Below are positions 430 through 40,593 of a stretch of 43,209 bases of DNA, piece after piece. The stretch covers positions 1 through 43,209 of the forward strand of contig JACPEI010000021.1 of assembly GCA_016183575.1 (NCBI GenBank), given 5' to 3'. Made by a program: the position numbers and the translations under genes. Below the pieces are notes generated by a model. The model did not search any database. It saw nothing but the letters and a program-made list of their open reading frames with translations, and was not told the DNA's origin. This DNA is from Nitrosomonadales bacterium (lineage in GTDB: Bacteria; Pseudomonadota; Gammaproteobacteria; Burkholderiales; Gallionellaceae). The first letter of the stretch is position 1; each line of letters starts with the position of its first letter.

Positions 430-2689
<2,260 letters not shown>

Positions 2690-2691
<2 letters not shown>

Positions 2692-7341: not shown

Positions 7342-7770
7342 TCACTTATATGGGCACTTCTTTTTGGTGCAATCCGCATAGATATGGAGCGAGTGGTCGT
7401 GAACGGCAAAGCCGCGTTCGGCGGCGATCTTTTCCTGGCGCGACTCGATGGCCGCATCGTAAAACTCCTCGACATGGCCGCATTGCAGGCAAACGATGTG
7501 GTCATGGTGCTTGCCCTGATTGAGTTCGAACACAGACTTGCCGCCCTCGAAGTTGTGGCGCGTCAACAGTCCGGCCTGCTCGAACTGCGTCAGCACGCGG
7601 TAAACCGTGGCCAGCCCCACGTCATCGCCACTGGCCAGCAAATGCTTGTACACATCTTCCGCGCTCATGTGGCGCTCCTGCCCTAATTCGAACAACTCCA
7701 GTATCCTGATCCGTGGCACGGTGGATTTCAGGCCGGCATTTTTCAGATGCCCTGGTTGGGGTTTGTCCAT
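7342..7770 (-). CDS. fur: Ferric uptake regulator Fur
   Basis: A 142-residue Fe(II)-dependent repressor. The N-terminal winged helix ends in the recognition helix with GLATVYRVL (52-60). The dimerisation half holds the metal motif HHDHIVCLQC with Cys94 and Cys97. A second pair, Cys134 and Cys139, is at the C-terminus as in E. coli Fur. The start has an AGGAG site. The gene is divergent from feoAB, and the intergenic Fur box (7824-7844) can serve both, so fur is probably autoregulated. Confidence 0.95.
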   Translation of the reverse strand: MDKPQPGHLKNAGLKSTVPRIRILELFELGQERHMSAEDVYKHLLASGDDVGLATVYRVLTQFEQAGLLTRHNFEGGKSVFELNQGKHHDHIVCLQCGHVEEFYDAAIESRQEKIAAERGFAVHDHSLHIYADCTKKKCPYK

Positions 7771-7823
7771 ATCAACGCTCTCCTGTCTTTTTTTGCATCA
7801 TGCCTGAAGGTGCTTGCAATTGC

Positions 7824-7844
7824 AAATGAGAACTATTATCATTT
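7824..7844. promoter_or_regulatory. Fur box overlapping the feoA promoter
   Basis: The 21 bases AAATGAGAACTATTATCATTT closely follow the Fur-box pattern of AAT/ATT hexamers in inverted arrangement. A -10-like TATTAT (7834-7839) is inside the box, so bound Fur would block RNA polymerase. The right edge is only 3 bases from the feoA ATG. The box lies between divergent fur and feoA. Confidence 0.85.
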
Positions 7845-7847
7845 GCT

Positions 7848-8081
7848 ATGCCTTCCACCACCCTAGCCACCCTGCACCCCGGCGAGTTAGCCACCATCGT
7901 CGCGATCCACGCCGAGGAAGCCCTGCACCAGCGCCTGCTCGCGCTGGGTTTCCGCAGCGGCAAGCAGATCGAGCTGATCCGCAAGGCGAGTTTCTCCGGC
8001 CCGTTGCAGGTGCGCATCGGCACCACCGACATCCTGCTGCGGCGCAGCGAGGCTGCCAAAATCACGGTGTGCAAGGTATGA
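7848..8081 (+). CDS. feoA: Ferrous iron transport protein FeoA
   Basis: A 77-residue SH3-like cytoplasmic protein that supports FeoB-driven Fe(II) uptake. The family pattern is clear: L-x2-L-x-P-G-x3-T near the N-terminus, then LLALGFRSGKQIEL and the C-terminal strand LRRSEAAKITV. There is no ribosome site: the ATG follows the Fur box by three bases, and the promoter -10 is inside that box, so the transcript should be leaderless or nearly so. Its stop overlaps the feoB start in an ATGA. Expressed under iron limitation by inference from the Fur box. Confidence 0.92.
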   Translation: MPSTTLATLHPGELATIVAIHAEEALHQRLLALGFRSGKQIELIRKASFSGPLQVRIGTTDILLRRSEAAKITVCKV

Positions 8082-9865
8082 AACGCATCGCACTCCTCGG
8101 CATGCCCAACACCGGCAAGTCCACGTTGTTCAACCGCCTGACCGGCGGCGCGGCGCGCGTCGGCAACTGGCCGGGCATCACCGTAGAATTGCTCAGCGGC
8201 AAGATCCTGCTCGGCGGCGACATGGTGGAAATCATCGACCTGCCCGGCATCTACGACCTGCACGGTTTCTCGGACGACGAGCAGGTGGTGCGCCATTTCC
8301 TGCACGACAACGTGCCGGATCTCGCGCTGGTCATCATCAACGCCACGCAGATCGAGCGCCAGATGAGCCTGTTGCTGCAACTCAAGCAGCTCAACATGAA
8401 CCTGGTGGTGCTGCTCAACATGGCGGACGAAGCCAAAAAATACGGCATCACCATCAACGGCAGGAAAATGTCCGAACTGCTGGGTATGCCGATTTTCCTG
8501 CTCAGCGGAAAATACGGCAGCGGCTATCCGGAAGCCCTGCAGGCGATCACCAGGGCATTGCGCTACCCAACGCCCGGCATGGCCGAACAGCTGCGCAGCC
8601 AGCTGGAACAGGATGTGCATATCGAAGCGGAAATGGCGCGCGTGCTCAGACATGCCGTGCAGATCCCGGCGCAACTGCCGGAAAACCTCACCGAAAAACT
8701 CGACCGCGTGATGCTGCATCCGTGGCTGGGACTGCCGATCTTTTTCGCCATCATGTACCTGCTGTTCCAGGGTATCTTCCTGCTCGGCCAGCCGCTGCAA
8801 ACCGGCGTCGCCAGTCTGTTCACCTGGCTGCGCGAGGCCGCGCTCGCGCCGCTGCTGGGCGGGCTGCCGCCAGCCGCGCAAGGACTGTTGATCGACGGTA
8901 TTTACAATGGCGTCGCCACCGTCGCCGCATTCGTGCCGCTGATCGTGCTGTTCTTCCTGTTCATGGCGATGGTGGAAGACAGCGGCTACCTGTCGCGCGC
9001 CGCGTTTTTGATGGACGCGCTGATGGCGCGTCTCGGACTGGACGGGCGCGGCTTCGTGATGCTGCTGATGGGCTTCGGCTGCAACGTGCCCGCACTGATG
9101 GGCACCCGCGTGATGCGTTCGCGCGCGATGCGCCTGCTGACCATGCTGGTGATCCCGTTCTCGCTGTGCTCGGCGCGCCTGCAGGTGTTCGTGTTCATCA
9201 CCGCCGCGCTGTTCTCGCCCAAAGCCGCGCCGCTCGTATTGTTCAGCCTGTACCTGTTCAGCTTTGCCGCCGCGATCCTCACCGCGCTGCTGTTCAAGGG
9301 CAAGTTCCTGAGCAACGAACCGTTCGTGCTGGAACTGCCGCCGTACCGCTTCCCCACCGCTTACCAGATTGTGATGCGCGGCTGGCTGGAAATACGCCAC
9401 TTTTTGCGCCGCGCCACCAAATTCATCATCGCCGGCGTCGTGCTGGTCTGGCTGCTCACCAACCTGCCGCCGTCCGCCGCGCCCGCCAGTCCCGATACGC
9501 TGGCCGGCATGATCGGCGGCTTCCTGCAGCCGGTCTTCGCACCGATCGGCATCAACGAGCAGCTCACCATCGCGCTGATCTTCGGCTTCGTCGCCAAGGA
9601 AATCGTCATCGGCGCGCTCGCGGTGATTTACGGCCTGAACGGCGCGGCATTGAGCGGCGCACTGGGACAGCAACTGGACTGGGTGCAGGCCTACAGTTTC
9701 ATGCTGTTCACGCTGATCTACATGCCGTGCCTCTCGACCATCGCCACGCTGCGCAGCGAGTCCAAAAACATGGGCTTCACCCTATTTACCATCGCCTGGT
9801 CGCTGACCCTGGCCTGGCTGGCGAGCTTCGCGTTTTATCAGGGCGCGCGGGCACTGGGATACTAA
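8078..9865 (+). CDS. feoB: Ferrous iron transporter FeoB
   Basis: A 595-residue inner-membrane Fe(II) transporter with an N-terminal G domain. Nucleotide motifs are G1 GMPNTGKST (8-16), G3 DLPG (54-57) and G4 NMAD (114-117), where FeoB proteins have Met in place of the Lys of NKxD. Two Gate regions with the core motifs DSGYLSRAAFLMD and GCNVPALMGTR follow. The C-terminal region has GFVAKEIVIGAL and YMPCLSTIA. It is shorter than E. coli FeoB (about 770 residues), a compact form also known elsewhere. It overlaps feoA by four bases. Codon use is GC-rich like the neighbours. Confidence 0.96.
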   Translation: MKRIALLGMPNTGKSTLFNRLTGGAARVGNWPGITVELLSGKILLGGDMVEIIDLPGIYDLHGFSDDEQVVRHFLHDNVPDLALVIINATQIERQMSLLLQLKQLNMNLVVLLNMADEAKKYGITINGRKMSELLGMPIFLLSGKYGSGYPEALQAITRALRYPTPGMAEQLRSQLEQDVHIEAEMARVLRHAVQIPAQLPENLTEKLDRVMLHPWLGLPIFFAIMYLLFQGIFLLGQPLQTGVASLFTWLREAALAPLLGGLPPAAQGLLIDGIYNGVATVAAFVPLIVLFFLFMAMVEDSGYLSRAAFLMDALMARLGLDGRGFVMLLMGFGCNVPALMGTRVMRSRAMRLLTMLVIPFSLCSARLQVFVFITAALFSPKAAPLVLFSLYLFSFAAAILTALLFKGKFLSNEPFVLELPPYRFPTAYQIVMRGWLEIRHFLRRATKFIIAGVVLVWLLTNLPPSAAPASPDTLAGMIGGFLQPVFAPIGINEQLTIALIFGFVAKEIVIGALAVIYGLNGAALSGALGQQLDWVQAYSFMLFTLIYMPCLSTIATLRSESKNMGFTLFTIAWSLTLAWLASFAFYQGARALGY

Positions 9866-9938: not shown

Positions 9939-10313
9939 ATGCGCGCTTACCTCGCTTTTCTGCTTGCCATCATGCTCTCACTGAACGCTGCTTACGCTGC
10001 ATCGGTGGGTGTTTGTGATGCACTTGAACACACATCGAACCACGCTGCACATTTCGGGCATCACAGCCACGAGCACAGTGACGATCACGCTCACGATGAA
10101 CCGGCAGTCGATGCTGATGGAGGAAGCGACATTTCTGTCGTCAGCGACCACCACCATGACCATGTGCATGCGGCTTTTTCCTGCCTGCTGTCGGACACCA
10201 TTGATGTGATACCGCTTGAGGGGTGCAGCCCCCTGATTGTAATCCCAGACAGCACTTTTATCTCGGCACCACAAGCTCTCATCGAGCATCCACCCAGAGC
10301 AGCCCTCGCCTGA
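9939..10313 (+). CDS. CzcI-like His-rich periplasmic protein
   Basis: A 124-residue secreted protein at the head of the metal-efflux block. A signal peptide (about residues 1-21, ending AYAA) is followed by Cys26 and a His/Asp-rich segment HFGHHSHEHSDDHAHDE (about 38-54), then a second cluster DHHHDHVHAAFSC. This matches the CzcI pattern of a Cys followed by HFGHHxHxH. CzcI proteins sit beside czcCBA systems and are thought to modulate their induction or bind metal in the periplasm. The exact role is not known. No strong ribosome site is seen. The 279 bases up to the next gene show no other gene. Confidence 0.7.
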   Translation: MRAYLAFLLAIMLSLNAAYAASVGVCDALEHTSNHAAHFGHHSHEHSDDHAHDEPAVDADGGSDISVVSDHHHDHVHAAFSCLLSDTIDVIPLEGCSPLIVIPDSTFISAPQALIEHPPRAALA

Positions 10314-10592
10314 GCTGGCGGGACGCCTCTTTTTTCTTTGTAGCACCCTGCGCCTGACCCAGTGAATTGGTCCTGGCTGCGTCCCGTCGAAATTCAACTT
10401 TTCCGTTGAGGGTTTCGATGATTCTGCATCTGCAAAAATCACTGATTAAGACTACTAGCCATCTGACTAACAGCAAAATACGCTGGATAAGTCACTGGTT
10501 ATAGATTCGCCTGAATGACGGAGTTCAACGTGCTTTTGTCTTACACGTGTGGTCACGTTTGCCACGCTGTCAGGCACTACTTGAGGTTAATC

Positions 10593-11717
10593 ATGAACAA
10601 AAAGAATCCACGCTTTCAGATATACGCATGCGCCATAGCCGCGCTGTGCGCTTTCACATCATCTGCTCAGGCGGCCGGTCAGCCCGCCAAATTCGCCGTT
10701 CCAAACGGCCAGATACAGGCATTGGGCATCACGACTACGCCGTTACAGAGCCAAGCAGAATCGGTGCGCGCGAGCTTCCCCGCTCAGGTGGTGGTTCCGC
10801 CAAACGCCGAACAGGTCATCAGTTCACCGGTGGCCGGCTTGGTATCCCAACTGTTGGTTCAGCAGAACCAAGCGGTGCGGAGCGGTGCGCCGCTGGTTCG
10901 CATCGCCAGCCCGGAATTCGGCCAATTGCAATTGCAGTTGCTTCAGGCGAACTCTCGCGTCACGCTGGCGCGGCAAACCGCGCAACGCGAGCAACTGCTG
11001 CTCGACGAAGGCATCATCCCGCAGCGCCGCGTGCAGGAAGCGCAGGCAGGCTTGAAAGAAGCCGAAGCAGCACTCAAGCAGGCAAAGGCGGCACTGCGTT
11101 TAACAGGCATGCCGCCCGCGACAATAGAAGAGATTGCCGCTTCCGGCAATCCGCAAGAAAGCTTGACGTTGGTATCAACGCAAGCAGGGGTTGTTACCGG
11201 GATCGCGGTCAAAATCGGTCAGCGTGTGGATTCGGCCAGCCCGTTATTACATGTGGTGCAGACCGACACCCTTAGTCTCGATATTCAAGTTCCGGTCGCT
11301 GATAGCGCCAGTTGGCAACCCGGAACCAGGCTCAAGGTGCAAGGCCGCGACATTGCGGCGCGCATTCTGAGCGCCAGCCCGAGTGTCTCGGCTGGCAGTC
11401 AGACGGTGGTGCTGCGTGCAGTAATCGAGGGCAAGGCTGGCCAGGTACGCCCCGGCGAATTTCTTGCGGTCGAGCTGCCCGTCAAGGCTGCGGCGGACGG
11501 TTGGGACTTGCCTTTGCCCGCCGTGGCCCACGACGGCAACCAGGCTTATGTATTCGTCCGCACGGCGGACGGCTTTGAGGCCAGGCCGGTAACGGTCGCG
11601 GCCAGCGCCGGCCAGCGGGTGCGGGTGCAAGGTTCGCTCAAGGCGGGCGAACAAGTCGCCGTCAGCGGAGTGGTGGCGCTCAAGGGTGCATGGCTCGACG
11701 CAAAGGGAGACAAATAA
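10593..11717 (+). CDS. Heavy-metal RND efflux periplasmic adaptor (CzcB/CusB-like)
   Basis: A 374-residue membrane-fusion protein that joins the RND pump to the outer-membrane factor. A signal peptide (about 1-26, ending AQAA) is followed by the lipoyl/barrel-sandwich part (APVAGLV-like SSPVAGLVSQLLV), a helical hairpin with LQLLQANSRVTLARQTAQREQ split between arms, and beta-barrel and membrane-proximal domains. The start at 10593 has GAGG at the right spacing and gives a proper signal peptide; a longer reading from 10515 does not. It shares one base (TAATG) with the pump gene, so translation is coupled. No extra His-rich N-terminal metal domain is present. Confidence 0.88.
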   Translation: MNKKNPRFQIYACAIAALCAFTSSAQAAGQPAKFAVPNGQIQALGITTTPLQSQAESVRASFPAQVVVPPNAEQVISSPVAGLVSQLLVQQNQAVRSGAPLVRIASPEFGQLQLQLLQANSRVTLARQTAQREQLLLDEGIIPQRRVQEAQAGLKEAEAALKQAKAALRLTGMPPATIEEIAASGNPQESLTLVSTQAGVVTGIAVKIGQRVDSASPLLHVVQTDTLSLDIQVPVADSASWQPGTRLKVQGRDIAARILSASPSVSAGSQTVVLRAVIEGKAGQVRPGEFLAVELPVKAAADGWDLPLPAVAHDGNQAYVFVRTADGFEARPVTVAASAGQRVRVQGSLKAGEQVAVSGVVALKGAWLDAKGDK

Positions 11718-14700
11718 TGCTTGCCCGCCTGGTTCAATTTTCCTTGTCGCAGCGCCTGTTCATCCTGCTTGCTACGCTGCTCGTCGCGGGTGTGGGCGGG
11801 TACGCCTATCAGGGGTTGCCGATCGACGCATTCCCTGACGTGGCGAGCACCCAGGTCAAGATCATCATGAAAGCCCCAGGCATGACGCCGGAGGAAATCG
11901 AAAACCGCATTGCGGTGCCGATCGAAGTCGAAATGCTCGGCATCCCCAAAACCAAGATTTTGCGCTCGATGACAAAGTACGGTTTGGTCGATGTCACGAT
12001 CGACTTCGAGGATGGCACCGATATCTATTGGGCACGCCAACAAGTCAGTGAACGTTTGGGAGGGCTTGCGGGAAGTTTGCCAACCGACATTTCGGGCGGC
12101 ATGGCGCCGATCACCACCCCCTTGGGCGAAATGTATATGTTCACCGTCGAAGGCGAGGGACTGTCTTTGGCGGAACGCCGCAGCGTGCTTGACTGGGCCA
12201 TTCGCCCGGCACTGCGAACCGTGCCTGGCGTCGCCGACGTAAATGCGCTGGGTGGTGTCGTTCGCGCTTTCGAAGTCGTGCCGGATCAGGTTAGGATGGC
12301 GGCGAGCGGTGTGACGATGGCGCAGTTCAAGGGGGCGATCGAAGCGAACAACCGCAACGACGGCGCGGGAAGGCTCAACGAAGGCGACGAAGTGCTCCTC
12401 GTTCGCGGCGAGGGCAGTATCACGAGCCTGGATGATCTGCGCTCGGTGGTGGTGGCCATGAAAGACGGAGCACCCGTTCGTGTGGGTGACTTGGCCGAGG
12501 TCAAGATCGGCACAGTCACCCGCTATGGGGTAGTCACACAAAGCGGCCGTGGTGAAGCCGTACAGGGGCTGGTGCTTGGGCTGGCCGGAGCTAACGCGCA
12601 AAAGGTGGTTGAGGGCGTTCGCAAGAAACTGGAAGAGCTGAAACCGACTTTGCCGCCGGGCGTTCAGGTCAATACATTCTACGACCGCGCCTCGCTTGTA
12701 TCCAAGGCGGTTGGCGCGATTTCCACAGCGCTGATCGAGGCGACTGTCCTGGTCATCGTGTTGCTTGGGCTGTTTCTGGGTAATATTCGCGCGGCTTTGA
12801 CTGTGGCCCTGGTGCTTCCGCTGGCGGCGCTAATCACGTTCATACTGATGCGCGTCTTCGGCATGTCGGCGAACTTGATGAGCCTCGGCGGGTTGGCGAT
12901 TGCCATCGGCATGCTGGTCGATGCCGCCGTCGTGGTGGTCGAAAACATTGTGCAGCGCCTGGCGATCGACCCGACGGTCGGCAAGCTTCCACGCTTGCAT
13001 ACGATCTACCGCGCGGTGCGCGAGGTTGCGGTTCCGGTTACCGCCGGGATTCTGATCATCATTACGGTATTTCTGCCGCTGCTCACCTTGCAGGATCTCG
13101 AAGGCAAGTTCTTCGTGCCGGTAGCGCTGACCATCGTCTTCGCCCTTGCCGGCTCGCTGGTGCTGTCGTTGACCGCCATACCGGTGCTGGCGTCTTACCT
13201 GTTGCGTGAAGTGAAGCACGAAGACCCGTGGTTGCCGCGCAAGCTGCTTGCCCTGTACGAGCCTGCACTCACCTGGGGCATGCGCCGGCAGCGCATCGTC
13301 GCGGTAGCCGCCGTGGCAATGCTGGTGGTGGCTGGCGTGATTTACACCCAGGTCGGCAAAACCTTCATGCCGACGATGGACGAGGGTGACCTTATTGTCG
13401 GCATCGAGAAACTACCCTCGGTAAGCCTCGAACAGAGTGCTGCACTCGATCTAAAAATTCACCGTGCCATCATGCAGGCAATACCGGAGATCACCGGCAT
13501 CGTGGCGCGCGCAGGCTCAGACGAAATCGGACTCGACCCGATGGGACTCAACCTGTCCGACACGTATTTGCTGATGAAGCCGCAAGGCGAGTGGCGCATG
13601 AAGAGCAAGGAAGCACTGATGGACGAAGTGCGCAAGGTGCTCGATCCCATGCCCGGCATCAAGTACAGCTTCACGCAACCGATCGAAATGCGGGTATCGG
13701 AAATGATCATCGGCGTGCGCGGCGATTTGGCGGTCAAAATCTTTGGGCCAGACCTCGATAAACTGAACGAGTACGCGAGCCAGGTTGAAGCACTTGTCAA
13801 GACGGTTCCCGGCAACCAGGACGTGTACACGGTACAGAACGACGGCGTGCAGTACTTGCGCGTGGTGGTGGATCGCTTGCAGGCCGGCAGGCTCGGTTTG
13901 AGCGTGGAAGAGATTCAGGATGCGCTGCGCACCCAGATAGTGGGGCAGAACGCCGGGATTGTCATTGAGGGCAACCGCCGCACGCCGATTGTGTTGCGCG
14001 GCACCGAAGCGATTCGCATGTCACCGGCCGATTTCGGGGCGATGCGCATTACCACCAAGGATGGCAACACCGTCCCATTGACCAGCGTCGCTAAATTGGA
14101 ACGCGCCGAAGGCCCGGTCAAGATTGACCGGGAAATGGGCAGCCGCTACAGCGTGGTCATTGCCAATGTGGAGGGTCGTGATCTGGTTGGTTTTGTTGAA
14201 GAGGCAAGGGCGCTAGTCACACAGAAACTCCCCCTGCCGACGGGCTACCGCATCAGTTGGGGCGGGCAGTTCGAGAACCAGCAACGCGCGGCAGCACGGC
14301 TGGCCGTCGTCGTACCGGTCGCACTCGCTCTGATATTCGTGCTGCTCTTTTCGACCTTCCGCTCGGTCCGTCAGGCTTTGCTCATCCTGAGCAACATTCC
14401 CTTCGCTCTGGTCGGCGGCATCGTCGCCTTATGGGTGACGGGAGAATACCTGTCGGTGCCGGCATCCGTTGGCTTTATCGCTCTGCTCGGCATCACCGTC
14501 CTGAACGGTGTCGTGCTGGTCAGCTATTTCAATCAACTGCAAAGCGAGGGAATGAAATTGAGCGAAGTCGTTGTGCAGGGTGCAAAACGTCGCTTGCGGC
14601 CGGTGCTGATGACCGCCTCTATCACTGCGTTCGGCTTGATCCCGCTGCTGTTTGCGACCGGTCCAGGCTCGGAAATACAGCGTCCGCTCGCCATCGTCGT

Positions 14701-14800
14701 GATTGGCGGCCTCATTACTGCCACGGCACTGACGCTGATCCTGCTGCCAATTTTATATTTGCGCTTCGCTTTCCCAGAACGAGAGGATTCCCATGTCTGA
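11717..14800 (+). CDS. CusA/CzcA-family heavy-metal RND efflux pump
   Basis: A 1027-residue proton-driven pump of the heavy-metal RND family, the central part of a three-component efflux complex. Family marks are IDAFPDVASTQV near residue 35, the DGTDIYWARQQVSERL segment, and twelve membrane helices around two large periplasmic loops. The proton-relay helix 4 reads AIAIGMLVDAAVVVVEN, with Asp402, Glu409 and Asn410. It lacks the DFG-x3-DGA form of the classical Zn/Co/Cd CzcA pump, so the metal is uncertain. The co-located Zn/Cd ATPase and CzcI-like protein argue for divalent metals. The start overlaps the adaptor stop by one base. Confidence 0.93.
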   Translation: MLARLVQFSLSQRLFILLATLLVAGVGGYAYQGLPIDAFPDVASTQVKIIMKAPGMTPEEIENRIAVPIEVEMLGIPKTKILRSMTKYGLVDVTIDFEDGTDIYWARQQVSERLGGLAGSLPTDISGGMAPITTPLGEMYMFTVEGEGLSLAERRSVLDWAIRPALRTVPGVADVNALGGVVRAFEVVPDQVRMAASGVTMAQFKGAIEANNRNDGAGRLNEGDEVLLVRGEGSITSLDDLRSVVVAMKDGAPVRVGDLAEVKIGTVTRYGVVTQSGRGEAVQGLVLGLAGANAQKVVEGVRKKLEELKPTLPPGVQVNTFYDRASLVSKAVGAISTALIEATVLVIVLLGLFLGNIRAALTVALVLPLAALITFILMRVFGMSANLMSLGGLAIAIGMLVDAAVVVVENIVQRLAIDPTVGKLPRLHTIYRAVREVAVPVTAGILIIITVFLPLLTLQDLEGKFFVPVALTIVFALAGSLVLSLTAIPVLASYLLREVKHEDPWLPRKLLALYEPALTWGMRRQRIVAVAAVAMLVVAGVIYTQVGKTFMPTMDEGDLIVGIEKLPSVSLEQSAALDLKIHRAIMQAIPEITGIVARAGSDEIGLDPMGLNLSDTYLLMKPQGEWRMKSKEALMDEVRKVLDPMPGIKYSFTQPIEMRVSEMIIGVRGDLAVKIFGPDLDKLNEYASQVEALVKTVPGNQDVYTVQNDGVQYLRVVVDRLQAGRLGLSVEEIQDALRTQIVGQNAGIVIEGNRRTPIVLRGTEAIRMSPADFGAMRITTKDGNTVPLTSVAKLERAEGPVKIDREMGSRYSVVIANVEGRDLVGFVEEARALVTQKLPLPTGYRISWGGQFENQQRAAARLAVVVPVALALIFVLLFSTFRSVRQALLILSNIPFALVGGIVALWVTGEYLSVPASVGFIALLGITVLNGVVLVSYFNQLQSEGMKLSEVVVQGAKRRLRPVLMTASITAFGLIPLLFATGPGSEIQRPLAIVVIGGLITATALTLILLPILYLRFAFPEREDSHV

Positions 14801-15095
14801 ATTTTGCTTAAATCTATTGTGTCCACTGGCGGTCGAAGAAAAATTGCTCGACCTGCTGCTCATGTCACCCAATGCGGAGGTTTTTACCAGTGCGCCGACA
14901 GCCGCTCACGGCTTGGCCTTCGGGCGCTTGAGCCAGACCGAACAAGTGCTCGGCCGCATGCTGGCAACACAGATACAGGTGTTGCTCTCTGAGACAGACA
15001 AAGAAGCACTGCTCAAAATCATTCAACAACAATTTGCCGGTGTAGGCCTACGCTATTGGTTAACGCCGGTCATCGAATCTGGGAGGTTTGCATGA
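14793..15095 (+). CDS. DUF3240 family protein
   Basis: A 100-residue protein of the DUF3240 family, which is found inside heavy-metal RND operons. It has a predicted ferredoxin-like or PII-like small fold: VEEKLLDLLLMSP at the N-terminus and QIQVLLSETDKEALLKIIQQ near the C-terminus. No signal peptide, so cytoplasmic. It overlaps the pump gene by eight bases and the outer-membrane-factor gene by four, so it is made with the complex. A regulatory or metal-sensing role is only inferred from its resemblance to PII-like proteins. Confidence 0.75.
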   Translation: MSEFCLNLLCPLAVEEKLLDLLLMSPNAEVFTSAPTAAHGLAFGRLSQTEQVLGRMLATQIQVLLSETDKEALLKIIQQQFAGVGLRYWLTPVIESGRFA

Positions 15096-16369
15096 AACAC
15101 ATACTACTGAGTGGTCGATCTGCTTTGTTGCTCGCCTTATTGAGCGGCATTGCCTGTGCCGAAGAAATCAACCGCTCCGACCTGCCGCCCCCTGCGCAAG
15201 TAGAAAGCGCGTTGAACCAACACCTCACGGTGCTGAATGCTGCCAGCGAGCTAAAAATGGAACACACCAATCAGCGCAAGTGGAACAGCGGCAATTACGA
15301 GTTCAACCTGCGCGCCGGCACGGGGCAACGCAACATCGCCAGCACCGGACAAAACCTCAAGGAATGGGATGTCGCGCTGGAACGCCCGCTACGCCTGTTC
15401 AACAAGGTGGGCATTGATGAAGACATCGGTGCGGCCAGTGTCGCGCACGCCGAATACGCGCTCGGCGATGCGCGTCATGAAGCCGGGCGCACGCTGTTGC
15501 GGCTGTGGTTCGCATGGCAACGCGAGCAAGCCCAAGTCGCACTGTGGCAGCAGCAGGTAGACATCCTCAAGCAACAGGCGCAAATGACTGAAAAGCGCGT
15601 CAAGGCAGGCGATGCGCCCAAGCTGGAATTGAACCAGGCGCAGGCTGCCGCCGCACAAGCCAGCGTATCATGGCATCAAGCCCAATTGCGTGCACATCTC
15701 GCCGGCAATGATCTGACGCGCCAGTTTCCCACCATCCAGTTGCCGGAAAAATTGCCTCCCGCCACACCGCAAGCCACCGAGCATGATCTCGCCTTCTGGA
15801 AGTCGCGTGTGCTCGAACACAACCATGAACTTGGCATGATGCAGGAGCAGAACCGTGTACAACAACTGCTGGCGCAGCGCAGTCGTGCCGACCAACTGCC
15901 CGATCCCACAGTCGGGGTGCGTTATGCGAATGAAGTGGGCGGCAACGAAAAAGTGGCTGGCGTGTATATCAGCGTACCCCTCTCTTTCGGACAACGCAGC
16001 GCGACGGCTGTAGGAGCCGCACAACAAGCCGCCATCGCCGCCGATCAGGAAGCCTTTGTCAAACGCCGTCTGGAAGGCGACATCTACGCCGCATATACTC
16101 AAACGGTGAGCAGCTTCGCCACCTGGCAACAGGCGCACGAGGCGGCACAGGCGATCCGCAGCAATGCCGAACTGGTCGGCAAGGCCTATAGCCTGGGCGA
16201 AAGTAGCCTTTCGGACAGCCTCATCGCACGTCGCTTTGCTTTGGAATCCTCGCTGGCGGAAAACCTCGCGCAACTCGACGCCAACGAAGCGCGCTACCGT
16301 TTGCTGCTGGATGCCCACCAACTGTGGCCGTTAGATAATGAAGACGAACATCATGCTAACCATTATTAA
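15092..16369 (+). CDS. TolC/CzcC-family outer-membrane factor
   Basis: A 425-residue outer-membrane efflux protein of the TolC superfamily. A signal peptide (about 1-21, ending IACA) is followed by two repeats of long coiled-coil helices, e.g. EREQAQ...QQQVDILKQQAQMTEKRVKAG and the second repeat ending in ENLAQLDANEARYRLLLDAHQLWPLD. The start has a GGGAGG site and overlaps the DUF3240 stop in an ATGA. In the classical czcCBA order this gene comes first; here it is last (adaptor, pump, DUF3240, outer-membrane factor). It completes the tripartite metal exporter. Confidence 0.88.
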   Translation: MKHILLSGRSALLLALLSGIACAEEINRSDLPPPAQVESALNQHLTVLNAASELKMEHTNQRKWNSGNYEFNLRAGTGQRNIASTGQNLKEWDVALERPLRLFNKVGIDEDIGAASVAHAEYALGDARHEAGRTLLRLWFAWQREQAQVALWQQQVDILKQQAQMTEKRVKAGDAPKLELNQAQAAAAQASVSWHQAQLRAHLAGNDLTRQFPTIQLPEKLPPATPQATEHDLAFWKSRVLEHNHELGMMQEQNRVQQLLAQRSRADQLPDPTVGVRYANEVGGNEKVAGVYISVPLSFGQRSATAVGAAQQAAIAADQEAFVKRRLEGDIYAAYTQTVSSFATWQQAHEAAQAIRSNAELVGKAYSLGESSLSDSLIARRFALESSLAENLAQLDANEARYRLLLDAHQLWPLDNEDEHHANHY

Positions 16370-16474: not shown

Positions 16475-17524
16475 ATGAATTGGAGAAAAGGATTTCGCCA
16501 GCCGGGCATACCGGCAGCACTGGGGGCTGCTTTGTTGTTCGGCGCGGGAACGCCGCTGGCGAAGTGGCTGCTTGATGCTGTCGATCCGTGGCTGTTAGCG
16601 GGATTGCTTTATCTTGGCTCCGGGGTCGGGCTGACGCTTTATCGTCGCCTGCGCCATGCACCTGCCGTTCACCTTCTTCGGAATGACCTGCCCTGGTTTG
16701 CCGGGGCGATTCTTGCGGGCGGAATTGTTGGCCCTGTGCTGCTGATGATCGGGCTGACAAGTATGCCTGCATCCGGTGCTTCTCTCCTGCTGAATGTTGA
16801 AGGCGTGTTTACCGCGCTGCTTGCGTGGTTCGTTTTCAAGGAGAACTTTGATCGGCGCATCGCGCTGGGAATGCTTGCCATCGTGACAGGCGCGACAGTC
16901 CTGAGCTGGCCCGGAGAGGCAAGTTTTGCAGGGCTGTGGCCGACGCTGGCTGTCCTTGGCGCGTGCTTCGCATGGGGTGTCGACAATAACCTGACGCGCA
17001 AGGTGTCGCTTATGGATGCCACTTGGATCGCCTCGGTGAAGGGTTTGGTGTCTGGTGCTATCAACCTGATTTTGGCCTTCTCGTTGGGTGCTTCAATGCC
17101 AGCACTGCCAAATTTGGCAGGTGCGATGGCGGTTGGATTGCTTGCCTATGGGGTGAGTTTGACGCTGTTCGTGGTGAGCCTGCGCCACCTCGGTACTGCG
17201 CGCACGGGCGCATATTTCTCGGTTGCGCCATTCTTCGGTGCGTTGCTTGCCTTACTGATGGGAGAGTCGATCACGATGCCGCTACTCATGGCCGGTGCAT
17301 TGATGGCGCTGGGCACATGGTTGCATCTAACCGAGCACCATGAACACGGACACGCCCACGAAGAGATGGTGCATAACCACGAGCATATCCACGACGAACA
17401 CCATCAGCACGGGCACGATTATCCGGCGATACCCGGCAGCAAACATCGCCATCAGCACCGGCACGAACCAATGGCACATGTGCATCCACACTTCCCGGAT
17501 GTTCACCACCGGCACCACCATTGA
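16475..17524 (+). CDS. EamA/DMT transporter with histidine-rich tail
   Basis: A 349-residue inner-membrane protein of the drug/metabolite transporter superfamily. About ten helices in two EamA repeats span residues 8-285, with ALLFGAGTPLAKWLL and LLNVEGVFTALLAWFVFKE as typical pieces. Residues 286-349 form a long His-rich tail (HHEHGHAHEE, HNHEHIHDEHHQHGHD, HRHQHRHEP, HHRHHH) that should bind metal ions. Proteins of this kind are found in metal-resistance loci, and the tail may pass metal to the transport path or buffer it. The substrate is not known. The start has weak ribosome-site sequence; 105 bases separate it from the efflux operon. Confidence 0.85.
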   Translation: MNWRKGFRQPGIPAALGAALLFGAGTPLAKWLLDAVDPWLLAGLLYLGSGVGLTLYRRLRHAPAVHLLRNDLPWFAGAILAGGIVGPVLLMIGLTSMPASGASLLLNVEGVFTALLAWFVFKENFDRRIALGMLAIVTGATVLSWPGEASFAGLWPTLAVLGACFAWGVDNNLTRKVSLMDATWIASVKGLVSGAINLILAFSLGASMPALPNLAGAMAVGLLAYGVSLTLFVVSLRHLGTARTGAYFSVAPFFGALLALLMGESITMPLLMAGALMALGTWLHLTEHHEHGHAHEEMVHNHEHIHDEHHQHGHDYPAIPGSKHRHQHRHEPMAHVHPHFPDVHHRHHH

Positions 17525-17583: not shown

Positions 17584-17642
17584 ATACGTCTGAAAATGAA
17601 CTCCACGAATTTTCAAGCCCATAGGGCATGGGGATACAGACA

Positions 17643-19796
17643 ATGAAACATTCGATATTCATTATCCGCAACATGGACTGTCCGACCGAGGAGGCGCTGA
17701 TTCGCAAGCGTCTCGGATCGATGCCGGGCATCGGCGAGTTGGCGTTCAATCTCATGGAGCGCCGCCTTACCGTTGCGCACACGCTGGACGATGAACAACC
17801 CATCCGCGACGCCTTGCGTGAAATCGGCATGAAGGCGGTTCCCGCGCAGCAGGCGCAGCCGGATACCTGTTCCAATTGCGAAACAGATACGCCGTCCGTG
17901 TCACGAAAGATATGGGTGATGATGGCGGTGTCAGGCGCTGCCGCGCTGACTGCGGAAATCCTCGCTTGGAGAGGCGCGGCAGAAAATTCGCCCGTCGTCA
18001 TTGCCTTCGTCCTATTCTCAATCGCGACCGGTGGTTTGAGTACGCTTAAGAAGGGTTGGATCGCGCTCAAGACTTTCACCCTCAACATGAACTTTCTGAT
18101 GAGCGTCGCCATGATCGGCGCAATAGCCATTGGGGAATGGCCGGAAGCTGCGGTGGTGATCTTCCTGTTTGCGCTGGCCGAATTGATCGAAACCCTTTCC
18201 TTGGAACGCGCCAAGAATGCGATCCGGGGCCTCATGGCGATGGCTCCGGAGACTGCGACAGTGCGCCTCGACAGCGGTGAGTGGCGCGAGATTGCAGCAG
18301 CCGACGTGCAGGTAGACCAAATCGCCCTCATCAAGCCTGGTGGGCGCATTCCACTGGACGGCGTAGTCACTGCGGGCGGCAGTTCAGTGAACCAGGCGCC
18401 GATTACCGGAGAAAGTATTCCTGTCGCTAAGGTCGCGGGCGATCCGGTTTTCGCCGGAACGCTGAACGAGCGTGGGGTGTTGGAGTTTCGCGTCACCGCA
18501 AACAAGGGCAACACCACGCTTGCCCGCATCATCCGTTCGGTTCAGGAGGCGCAAGGCCAGCGCGCGCCGACGCAACGCTTTGTCGATCAGTTCGCGCGCT
18601 ACTACACGCCTGCCGTTGTGGCTTTTGCGGTTCTGGTGGCAGCCGTGCCGCCGCTGTTGTTCGGCGCTGCGTTTGAGCCATGGTTCTACAAGGCTCTGGT
18701 CATGCTGGTAATCGCCTGTCCCTGCGCGCTGGTTATCTCTACTCCGGTTACCGTGGTGAGCGGTCTCGCCGCAGCGGCAAGGCAGGGCATTCTGGTGAAG
18801 GGCGGCGTGCATCTGGAAAATGGACGGCTGGTCAAGGCCGTGGCCTTGGACAAAACCGGCACGCTGACCCACGGCAGACCGGTGGTGACCGATGTCGTCC
18901 CGCTCGTCGAACAACCGGCGCACACACTGCTCCAGCTTGCCGCCAGCGTAAACGCCCATTCTGAACACCCCGTTGCCGCCGCCATCGTTGCGGCTTGGCA
19001 AACGCCTGCCGATGGGAGTGAAGCACCCCGTGCATTGTTGCCGTCCACCGCGTTCGAGTCCCTGACCGGACGCGGTGCCAAGGCCATCGTTGGGGGGCGT
19101 CTTTACTATGTCAGCAATCACCGCCAAGTGGAGGAGCTGGGTATCTGTGGTGCGCATGTCGAGACAGTGCTCCACCGCCTCGAAGAACAGGGAAAAACCG
19201 CCGTCGTATTGGGCACGGAAAGCAATGCGTTGTGCGTCATCGGCGTCGCCGACACGCTGCGCGGCCACAGCGCCGAGGCGATCCGTCAGCTACACGCGCT
19301 CGGCGTGGCATCGGTGATGCTGACCGGCGACAACCAGACGACGGCTGATGCCATCGCCGCACAGGTGGGCATAGACGATGCGCGCGGCAACCTGTTGCCA
19401 GAGGACAAGCTGGCGGTCATTGATGAGCTGATCCGCCGCCATGGCAAGGTCGGCATGGTGGGCGACGGCATCAACGACGCGCCAGCGTTGGCCAAGGCGT
19501 CCATCGGCTTCGCCATGGGTGTCGCCGGAACCGATACCGCCATCGAGACAGCCGATGTAGCCTTGATGGATGACGATTTGCGCAAACTGCCGCACTTCAT
19601 TCGGATAAGCCGTGACACTTCACGTGTGCTGTGGCAGAACATTACGCTGGCCATCGGCATCAAGGGGATATTCTTTGTCCTGGCACTCGCAGGGGAAGCC
19701 ACGCTTTGGATGGCTGTGTTCGCCGATATGGGAGCCAGTCTGATCGTGGTGTTCAACGGCATGAGGCTGCTCAAAAGTAAGAACTTGCCTGGTTAG
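17643..19796 (+). CDS. cadA: Zn(II)/Cd(II)/Pb(II)-exporting P1B-type ATPase
   Basis: A 717-residue metal-exporting P-type ATPase of the inner membrane (CadA/ZntA class). The N-terminal metal-binding domain has a single-cysteine motif, NMDCPTEEA (10-18), instead of GMxCxxC. Other marks are TGES, the membrane site CPC (359-361) followed by ALVIS, phosphorylated Asp403 in [15 protein letters not shown] (607-614), and Asp695 in the last helix (ADMGASL), a residue typical of Zn/Cd pumps. A start five codons earlier at 17628 is possible. It works alongside the RND system: the ATPase clears the cytoplasm and the RND complex the periplasm. Its TAG stop overlaps the rep stop codon from the other strand. 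Confidence 0.94.
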   Translation: MKHSIFIIRNMDCPTEEALIRKRLGSMPGIGELAFNLMERRLTVAHTLDDEQPIRDALREIGMKAVPAQQAQPDTCSNCETDTPSVSRKIWVMMAVSGAAALTAEILAWRGAAENSPVVIAFVLFSIATGGLSTLKKGWIALKTFTLNMNFLMSVAMIGAIAIGEWPEAAVVIFLFALAELIETLSLERAKNAIRGLMAMAPETATVRLDSGEWREIAAADVQVDQIALIKPGGRIPLDGVVTAGGSSVNQAPITGESIPVAKVAGDPVFAGTLNERGVLEFRVTANKGNTTLARIIRSVQEAQGQRAPTQRFVDQFARYYTPAVVAFAVLVAAVPPLLFGAAFEPWFYKALVMLVIACPCALVISTPVTVVSGLAAAARQGILVKGGVHLENGRLVKAVALDKTGTLTHGRPVVTDVVPLVEQPAHTLLQLAASVNAHSEHPVAAAIVAAWQTPADGSEAPRALLPSTAFESLTGRGAKAIVGGRLYYVSNHRQVEELGICGAHVETVLHRLEEQGKTAVVLGTESNALCVIGVADTLRGHSAEAIRQLHALGVASVMLTGDNQTTADAIAAQVGIDDARGNLLPEDKLAVIDELIRRHGKVGMVGDGINDAPALAKASIGFAMGVAGTDTAIETADVALMDDDLRKLPHFIRISRDTSRVLWQNITLAIGIKGIFFVLALAGEATLWMAVFADMGASLIVVFNGMRLLKSKNLPG

Positions 19797-39732: not shown

Positions 39733-40593
39733 ATGAAATCATCCTGGATGCTGGTCGCCGGATTGCTGTTCGGCTGCATGGGGGTGTTCGTCAAACTCGG
39801 CGCGGCGCATTTTTCGTATATCGAACTGGTGTTCTACCGCTCGTTTTTCGGCCTGCTGCTGGTCTACGGCATCATGCGATCACAGCGCATCGGCGTCGCC
39901 ACGCAACACTGGCGCAACCACTTGTGGCGTGGCATCTCCGGTTCGGTAGCCCTGGCGCTGTTCTTCTACTGCATCACCGTGCTGCCGCTCGCCACCGCCG
40001 TCACGCTCAACTATACCGCGCCGCTGTTCCTCACCCTCCTCACCATGCTGGTGTTCAAGGATCGTTTCCACCTGCCGCTGACCATCGCGATCGGCGTGGG
40101 ATTCTGCGGCGTGGTGTTGCTGCTGCACCCAACGCTCCAGCAGGACCAGCTGCTGCCCGGCCTGCTCGGCCTGATTTCCGGCTTCCTCGCCGGGGTCGCG
40201 TACCTCAACGTAAAACAACTCGCGATGATCGGCGAACCGGACACGCGCACCGTGTTCTATTTCAGCCTCATCGCCTCGCTCGGCAGCGGCGTCTGGATAC
40301 TGTTCGGCACCGTGCATGCGATCACGCCGCAAGGCTTCGCGATTCTGCTCGGGCTGGGCAGTTCCGCCACCCTCGCGCAGCTCGCGATGACGCGCGCCTA
40401 CCGCACCGGCAGGACGCTGGTGGTCGGCAGCCTGGCCTACAGCACCATCGTGTTCGCCAGCCTGTTCGGCATGCTGCTGTGGGACGAAACCCTGAGCCTG
40501 GGCAGTTGGCTGGGCATGGCGTTCATCATCGCCAGCGGTGTGCTAAGCTTGCGCCTGTCACCTCAACACCCGCCAAAAGAAGGAGCAACATGA
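39733..40593 (+). CDS. EamA/DMT-family transporter
   Basis: A 286-residue inner-membrane protein with ten predicted helices in two EamA repeats: LLFGCMGVFVKLGA at the start, FYCITVLPLATAVTLNYTAPLFLTLL in the first half, and the second EamA half ending in LSLRLSP. Members export small metabolites or amino acids; the substrate is not evident. It is not closely similar to the His-tailed EamA protein at 16475. The stop overlaps the next start (ATGA), so the two are cotranslated. No clear ribosome site. Confidence 0.85.
   Translation: MKSSWMLVAGLLFGCMGVFVKLGAAHFSYIELVFYRSFFGLLLVYGIMRSQRIGVATQHWRNHLWRGISGSVALALFFYCITVLPLATAVTLNYTAPLFLTLLTMLVFKDRFHLPLTIAIGVGFCGVVLLLHPTLQQDQLLPGLLGLISGFLAGVAYLNVKQLAMIGEPDTRTVFYFSLIASLGSGVWILFGTVHAITPQGFAILLGLGSSATLAQLAMTRAYRTGRTLVVGSLAYSTIVFASLFGMLLWDETLSLGSWLGMAFIIASGVLSLRLSPQHPPKEGAT

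Follow-up and report, generated by a model that had tools for sequence, protein, structure and literature searches.

A CnrT-type EamA transporter in a Gallionellaceae metal-efflux region and the histidine-rich tail it has in common with NreB-type proteins

The gene at 16475..17524 (+ strand) in a 43,209-nucleotide stretch of DNA from a Nitrosomonadales bacterium (contig JACPEI010000021.1; the whole stretch analyzed is referred to as the window) is best read, from its sequence, as encoding a member of the CnrT family of nickel exporters and not a new kind of transporter. CnrT-type exporters are already known. The new point is that a near-identical histidine-rich tail is found on NreB, an unrelated nickel exporter. 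We found no published account of a tail common to two unrelated nickel exporters in the literature searched, which leaves out most subscription journals. The first-pass annotation had proposed a metal-binding extension on a fold not usually known for metals, which could be a novel metal exporter or a sensor tail. An extension of this kind on an exporter fits the results, but the novelty does not hold, because proteins of the CnrT branch, within the DMT superfamily, end in the same tail and this branch has already been named a Ni(II) exporter. The CnrT family has a known substrate and is apparently little studied, and a seemingly odd gene in the window can now be placed in it.

The CnrT-type transporter and its family

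The open reading frame starts with ATG and encodes 349 amino acids that end in a His-rich C-terminal tail. Two copies of the Pfam EamA domain (PF00892) were recognized in the product (E = 2.1e-23). Ten transmembrane helices were predicted, as also seen in an AlphaFold model, with the last helix at residues 268 to 285. The membrane part of the model resembled the DMT structures of YddG and LicB (5i20 and 7paf), with TM-scores (by target) of about 0.75 to 0.79 and 17 to 20% identity, and YddG was the best match in the PDB. YddG and LicB share this overall fold, but they have organic substrates and lack a His tail.

CnrT, encoded on plasmid pMOL28 of Cupriavidus metallidurans CH34, was first met as a plasmid match by tblastn, where it was annotated as a "nickel diffusion facilitator." In a direct comparison CnrT and the window protein were 58% identical over 336 amino acids, tail included (5e-95), and generic EamA proteins of other genomes reached 25 to 28% identity. 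Published accounts assign CnrT to the DMT family, describe it as an exporter of Ni(II) in the inner membrane, and group it with DmeF and CnrCBA (PMC11647595; PMC7019866; PMC9045368). Thus, the assignment to the CnrT family is based on identity that continues through the tail, together with the published description of CnrT as a Ni(II) exporter. The window encodes a second EamA protein (39733-40593, + strand), an ordinary one without a His tail, which gave no significant sequence match to the protein encoded at 16475-17524.

Polar residues in the membrane core set the family apart from generic EamA proteins. N107, E109, D170-N171-N172, D181, K189, and N197 were invariant in 37 sequences including CnrT, whereas most of them were missing at the equivalent positions of five generic EamA proteins. 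Their family specificity makes these residues candidate components of an ion path.

In a quick tree, the window protein fell in a branch of 71 rows and CnrT in its sister branch, which had 20 rows, both within one clade. The 97-row clade with CnrT had an SH-aLRT value of 99 in this tree, in which the outgroups were very distant, the outgroup branches very long, and the rooting insecure. No experimentally characterized member of the 71-row branch was found in the literature, and since CnrT belongs to the sister branch, the substrates of the two branches could differ.

The histidine-rich tail and its occurrence on NreB-type proteins

The tail (residues 288 to 349; 17336..17521, + strand), a module that CnrT and NreB-type MFS proteins also possess, begins directly after the last helix. 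It has 25 histidines in 62 amino acids, compared with 4 in the preceding 287, and the binomial chance of such a count at a 2.2% background is about 2e-25. The earlier description of 64 residues with more than twenty histidines was therefore essentially right. The tail comprises two 26-residue units of equal spacing (HxHxHxHxxxxHxHxHxxDxHHxHxH) with a short linker between them. Unit A (residues 289 to 314; 17339..17416, + strand) reads HEHGHAHEEMVHNHEHIHDEHHQHGH, and unit B (residues 324 to 349; 17444..17521, + strand) reads HRHQHRHEPMAHVHPHFPDVHHRHHH. Twenty-one of the 25 tail histidines were invariant in the 37 sequences including CnrT, as were P341-D342 and, in each unit, the D and HH positions.

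Each unit was modeled as a beta-hairpin in two AlphaFold models, with pLDDT values of about 62 to 79 over the hairpins. The two models had overlapping alignments and different lead sequences (the window protein and the 60% identical L077). The predicted strands span residues 290 to 295 and 298 to 305 in unit A and residues 323 to 330 and 333 to 338 in unit B. We have moderate confidence in these predicted hairpins, in which the HxHxH pattern would place the histidines of a strand all on one face. Ten helices would put the N- and C-terminal ends on the same side of the membrane, and in the DMT superfamily the side holding both ends is taken as the cytoplasm.

When the genomes of about 85,000 species were scanned, 203 related stretches emerged, of which the best 80 were read. 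The same tail, which the first-pass annotation had proposed to seek in other EamA proteins, was present in 79 of the best 80 of the 203 relatives. This count includes L080, in which the end of the contig falls inside unit B. The sole exception was L075, in which the reading ends early. The tail was conserved residue by residue in homologs from Pseudomonadota, Actinomycetota, Verrucomicrobiota, and Acidobacteriota. This conservation across phyla rules out a low-complexity or chance run of histidines and, together with the mixed histidine codons (CAC/CAT, 16/9), indicates that the tail is no reading artifact. Members of the CnrT family are not confined to Cupriavidus but range from Betaproteobacteria to the phyla Actinomycetota, Acidobacteriota, and Verrucomicrobiota.

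Further bearers of the tail were sought with a general DNA pattern for a single tail unit. This pattern recovered MFS proteins that end in a near-identical two-unit His tail and are 47 to 52% identical to NreB of C. metallidurans, which was recognized by its position after nccCBA. Some of these NreB-type proteins include the HDEHHQHEH core of the tail. The carriers are unrelated, the NreB-type protein having a membrane core of about 400 residues that belongs to the major facilitator superfamily whereas the window carrier is an EamA protein, and the tail alone is common to both. The tails also differ in detail, as unit B ends in FxIDxHHxxW in the NreB type and in H[FY]PDxHHxHxH in the CnrT type. 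NreB-type transporters with the near-identical two-unit tail were seen in L147, L148, L149, L151, L152, and L157 (3516-4886), and plasmid versions in Vibrio and Halomonas sit after a gene for a metal-sensing repressor.

The likeness between the two types of tail was evaluated with a profile made from EamA tails only. Five NreB-type MFS tails and one Halomonas plasmid tail scored 18.6 to 36.6 bits with this profile, and 13 other His-rich proteins scored at most 3.9 bits. Full shuffles of the tails gave negative scores, and shuffles in which the histidines were held fixed scored about 20 bits lower on average. Because the shuffles and the His-rich controls scored low, the likeness between EamA and NreB tails exceeds what histidine content and pattern would give. 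Common descent of the CnrT-type and NreB-type tails is likely. A profile of both tail types gave 15 matches in 249 Pseudomonadota genomes, namely 11 CnrT-type EamA and 4 NreB-type MFS proteins, and no third type of carrier was among these 15; this profile was built from both types and applied with a strict cutoff, so divergent bearers may be missed. A DNA pattern for block B, which matched EamA genes in 14 of 14 cases, had suggested that the tail is exclusive to EamA proteins, an idea overturned when the broader pattern and the profile matched NreB-type MFS proteins. Some NreB-type members, NreB of strain CH34 among them, are without the tail altogether, and thus NreB does not strictly need it.

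More tentatively, the tail could be a discrete Ni/Co-binding module of two beta-hairpins, undescribed as a domain, that has moved between the unrelated DMT (CnrT) and MFS (NreB) transporters and so marks the substrate whatever the fold of the carrier. We consider that this proposal falls somewhat short of an even chance. The strictly spaced tail offers a sequence marker by which to recognize candidate Ni/Co exporters labeled just "EamA" or "MFS transporter" in databases, and as a small module its metal binding is directly testable as a peptide.

Proposed role beside the efflux operon

The EamA gene lies between a heavy-metal RND operon (czcBA-DUF3240-czcC) and a gene for a ZntA-like ATPase, all on the + strand. 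The operon encodes a CzcB-like periplasmic adaptor (10515..11717; HlyD_D23, PF16576), a CzcA/CusA-family heavy-metal RND pump (11690..14800; TIGR00914, 1070 bits; ZneA, 4k0e, as the nearest solved structure), a small DUF3240 protein between czcA and czcC (14793..15095; PF11582), and a CzcC-like outer-membrane factor (15056..16369; OEP, PF02321). The true start of the czcC-like gene is probably the ATG at 15092. The gene that follows the EamA gene (17628..19796) encodes a ZntA-like P1B-type ATPase for Zn/Cd/Pb that has a single HMA domain and a CPC motif and is closest to ZntA (4umv) among solved structures. Ahead of czcB, a small exported His-rich protein without a Pfam match is encoded (9939..10313, + strand), which from its appearance we take to resemble CzcI. 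A gene for a FeoB-like ferrous iron transporter (7814-9865, + strand) is directly upstream of the metal efflux genes, and a copper-type P1B ATPase with an HMA domain and a CPC motif is encoded at 430-2691 (+ strand).

Both cnrT and the window gene adjoin a heavy-metal RND operon, cnrT being the last gene of cnrYXHCBAT, and the two proteins are alike in DMT/EamA fold, tail design, and His positions. However, the cnr operon encodes the sigma/anti-sigma regulators CnrYXH and lacks a P-type ATPase; the window, by contrast, encodes a ZntA-like ATPase together with DUF3240 and a ZneA-like pump, and CnrYXH is absent. Pfam scans of the genes examined near the operon in the window identified no CnrYXH-type regulator, and no nickel regulator was found in the window. 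Rfam gave no match in the window to a NiCo riboswitch upstream of the EamA gene, and matches in a promoter and terminator scan were no more frequent than chance.

The window protein is probably a proton-driven exporter of Ni(II)/Co(II) from the cytoplasm to the periplasm, with a cytoplasmic metal-capturing tail, that functions beside the RND pump and the ZntA-like ATPase. The protein would move Ni(II)/Co(II) across the inner membrane, probably against protons, and the CzcCBA/ZneCBA-like RND pump encoded just upstream would then remove the periplasmic metal from the cell. The two His-lined hairpins of the cytoplasmic tail would collect Ni(II)/Co(II) at the transporter's inner mouth, where they may raise the local metal concentration or open the transporter at high metal. 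The exporter class is well supported. We infer the substrate of the window member, the proton coupling, the cytoplasmic side of the tail, and its role in capture or gating.

A possible, although doubtful, alternative is a tail that acts chiefly as a buffer or store for metal, or as a metal-responsive gate (a sensor), and not as a hand-off site, in which case the transporter would also work without it. The tail-less NreB of strain CH34 is consistent with a buffer or gate. Grass et al. reportedly found in 2001 that the His-rich end of NreB is dispensable, yet required for maximal nickel resistance. There is a comparable debate over the chelating His loop of RcnA, a Ni/Co exporter of a different protein family in which the cytoplasmic His-rich segment forms an internal loop instead of a C-terminal tail (PMC11247825). 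However, if the tail were only a buffer, there would be no need for its exact spacing, for its fixed D and HH, or for the P-D of unit B, all of which are invariant across phyla, and the fixed positions are partly common to the NreB-type tails.

Less probable still is the same exporter mechanism with Zn(II)/Cd(II) as the substrate, in which the protein would feed cytoplasmic zinc to the czc-like pump alongside the ZntA-like ATPase. The first-pass annotation had expected Zn/Cd from the czc neighbors, and these neighbors do appear to be of the Zn/Cd type, which makes Zn/Cd possible: of the solved structures, that of the zinc pump ZneA is nearest to the RND pump, and a ZntA-like gene comes next, a setting that is not cnr-like. 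Furthermore, two genomes of the same genus have a ZntA-like gene (83% identical) that there, too, is followed by the EamA gene, and many relatives adjoin MerR or ArsR regulators, whose metal is unspecified. However, CnrT, as the closest characterized relative, exports nickel, and so does NreB, which bears the tail as well, and therefore Ni/Co is favored first. The adjacent ZntA-like ATPase would also leave a second zinc exporter partly redundant, and the order of genes around the EamA gene varies, which makes the neighbors a weak guide to the substrate. Export of an organic metabolite, with a tail that only tunes the protein to metal stress, is very improbable. Generic EamA exporters do carry organic substrates, and there was a weak NCBIfam match to YedA, a drug/metabolite exporter (E = 1e-4, far under the cutoff), but the 58% identity to CnrT, the family-specific polar core, and a consistent metal-gene setting argue against an organic substrate.

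Gene neighborhoods of the relatives

A gene for a MerR, ArsR, or RcnR-like regulator was within 600 bp of the EamA gene in 19 of the best 80 of the 203 loci, and in 12 of 73 after removal of the seven loci that had supplied search sequences. A regulator gene was within 300 bp of about 0.5% of the control positions placed on the same loci, and these positions are biased because whole metal islands are sampled. RND genes were within 4 kb in 16 of the best 80 of the 203 loci and within 1.5 kb in 9 of these 80, neither of which exceeded the rate at these biased control positions. Therefore, the association with czc/RND genes that the first-pass annotation had proposed to seek was only partial and did not rise above the rate elsewhere on the same loci; adjacency to metal-sensing regulators was clearer. 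Confinement of the tail to the vicinity of czc genes was ruled out by the RND count within 4 kb. No CnrX or CnrH match was found within 5 kb at any of the best 80 of the 203 homolog loci. Chromate genes, CDF proteins, and P1B ATPases recurred nearby, and the CnrT-type family travels in metal-resistance regions of diverse composition.

Other genes recurred close to the EamA gene. One of them, in genomes of the Gallionellaceae type, encodes a small exported protein that has the motif HDHGSGGHSHxHG, presumably DUF6488, and is located just upstream (7575-7934 in both L008 and L057; also L009, L118, and L120, and near L001 on the other side). In L036, L038, L039, and L075 the gene for an upstream MerR-type regulator, which has a short His end of its own (GHVHGAHGRS), overlaps the start of the EamA gene by a few bases. 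A SAM-dependent methyltransferase-like gene adjoins the EamA gene 25 to 28 bp upstream in L040, L042, and L054 and downstream in L116 and L117.
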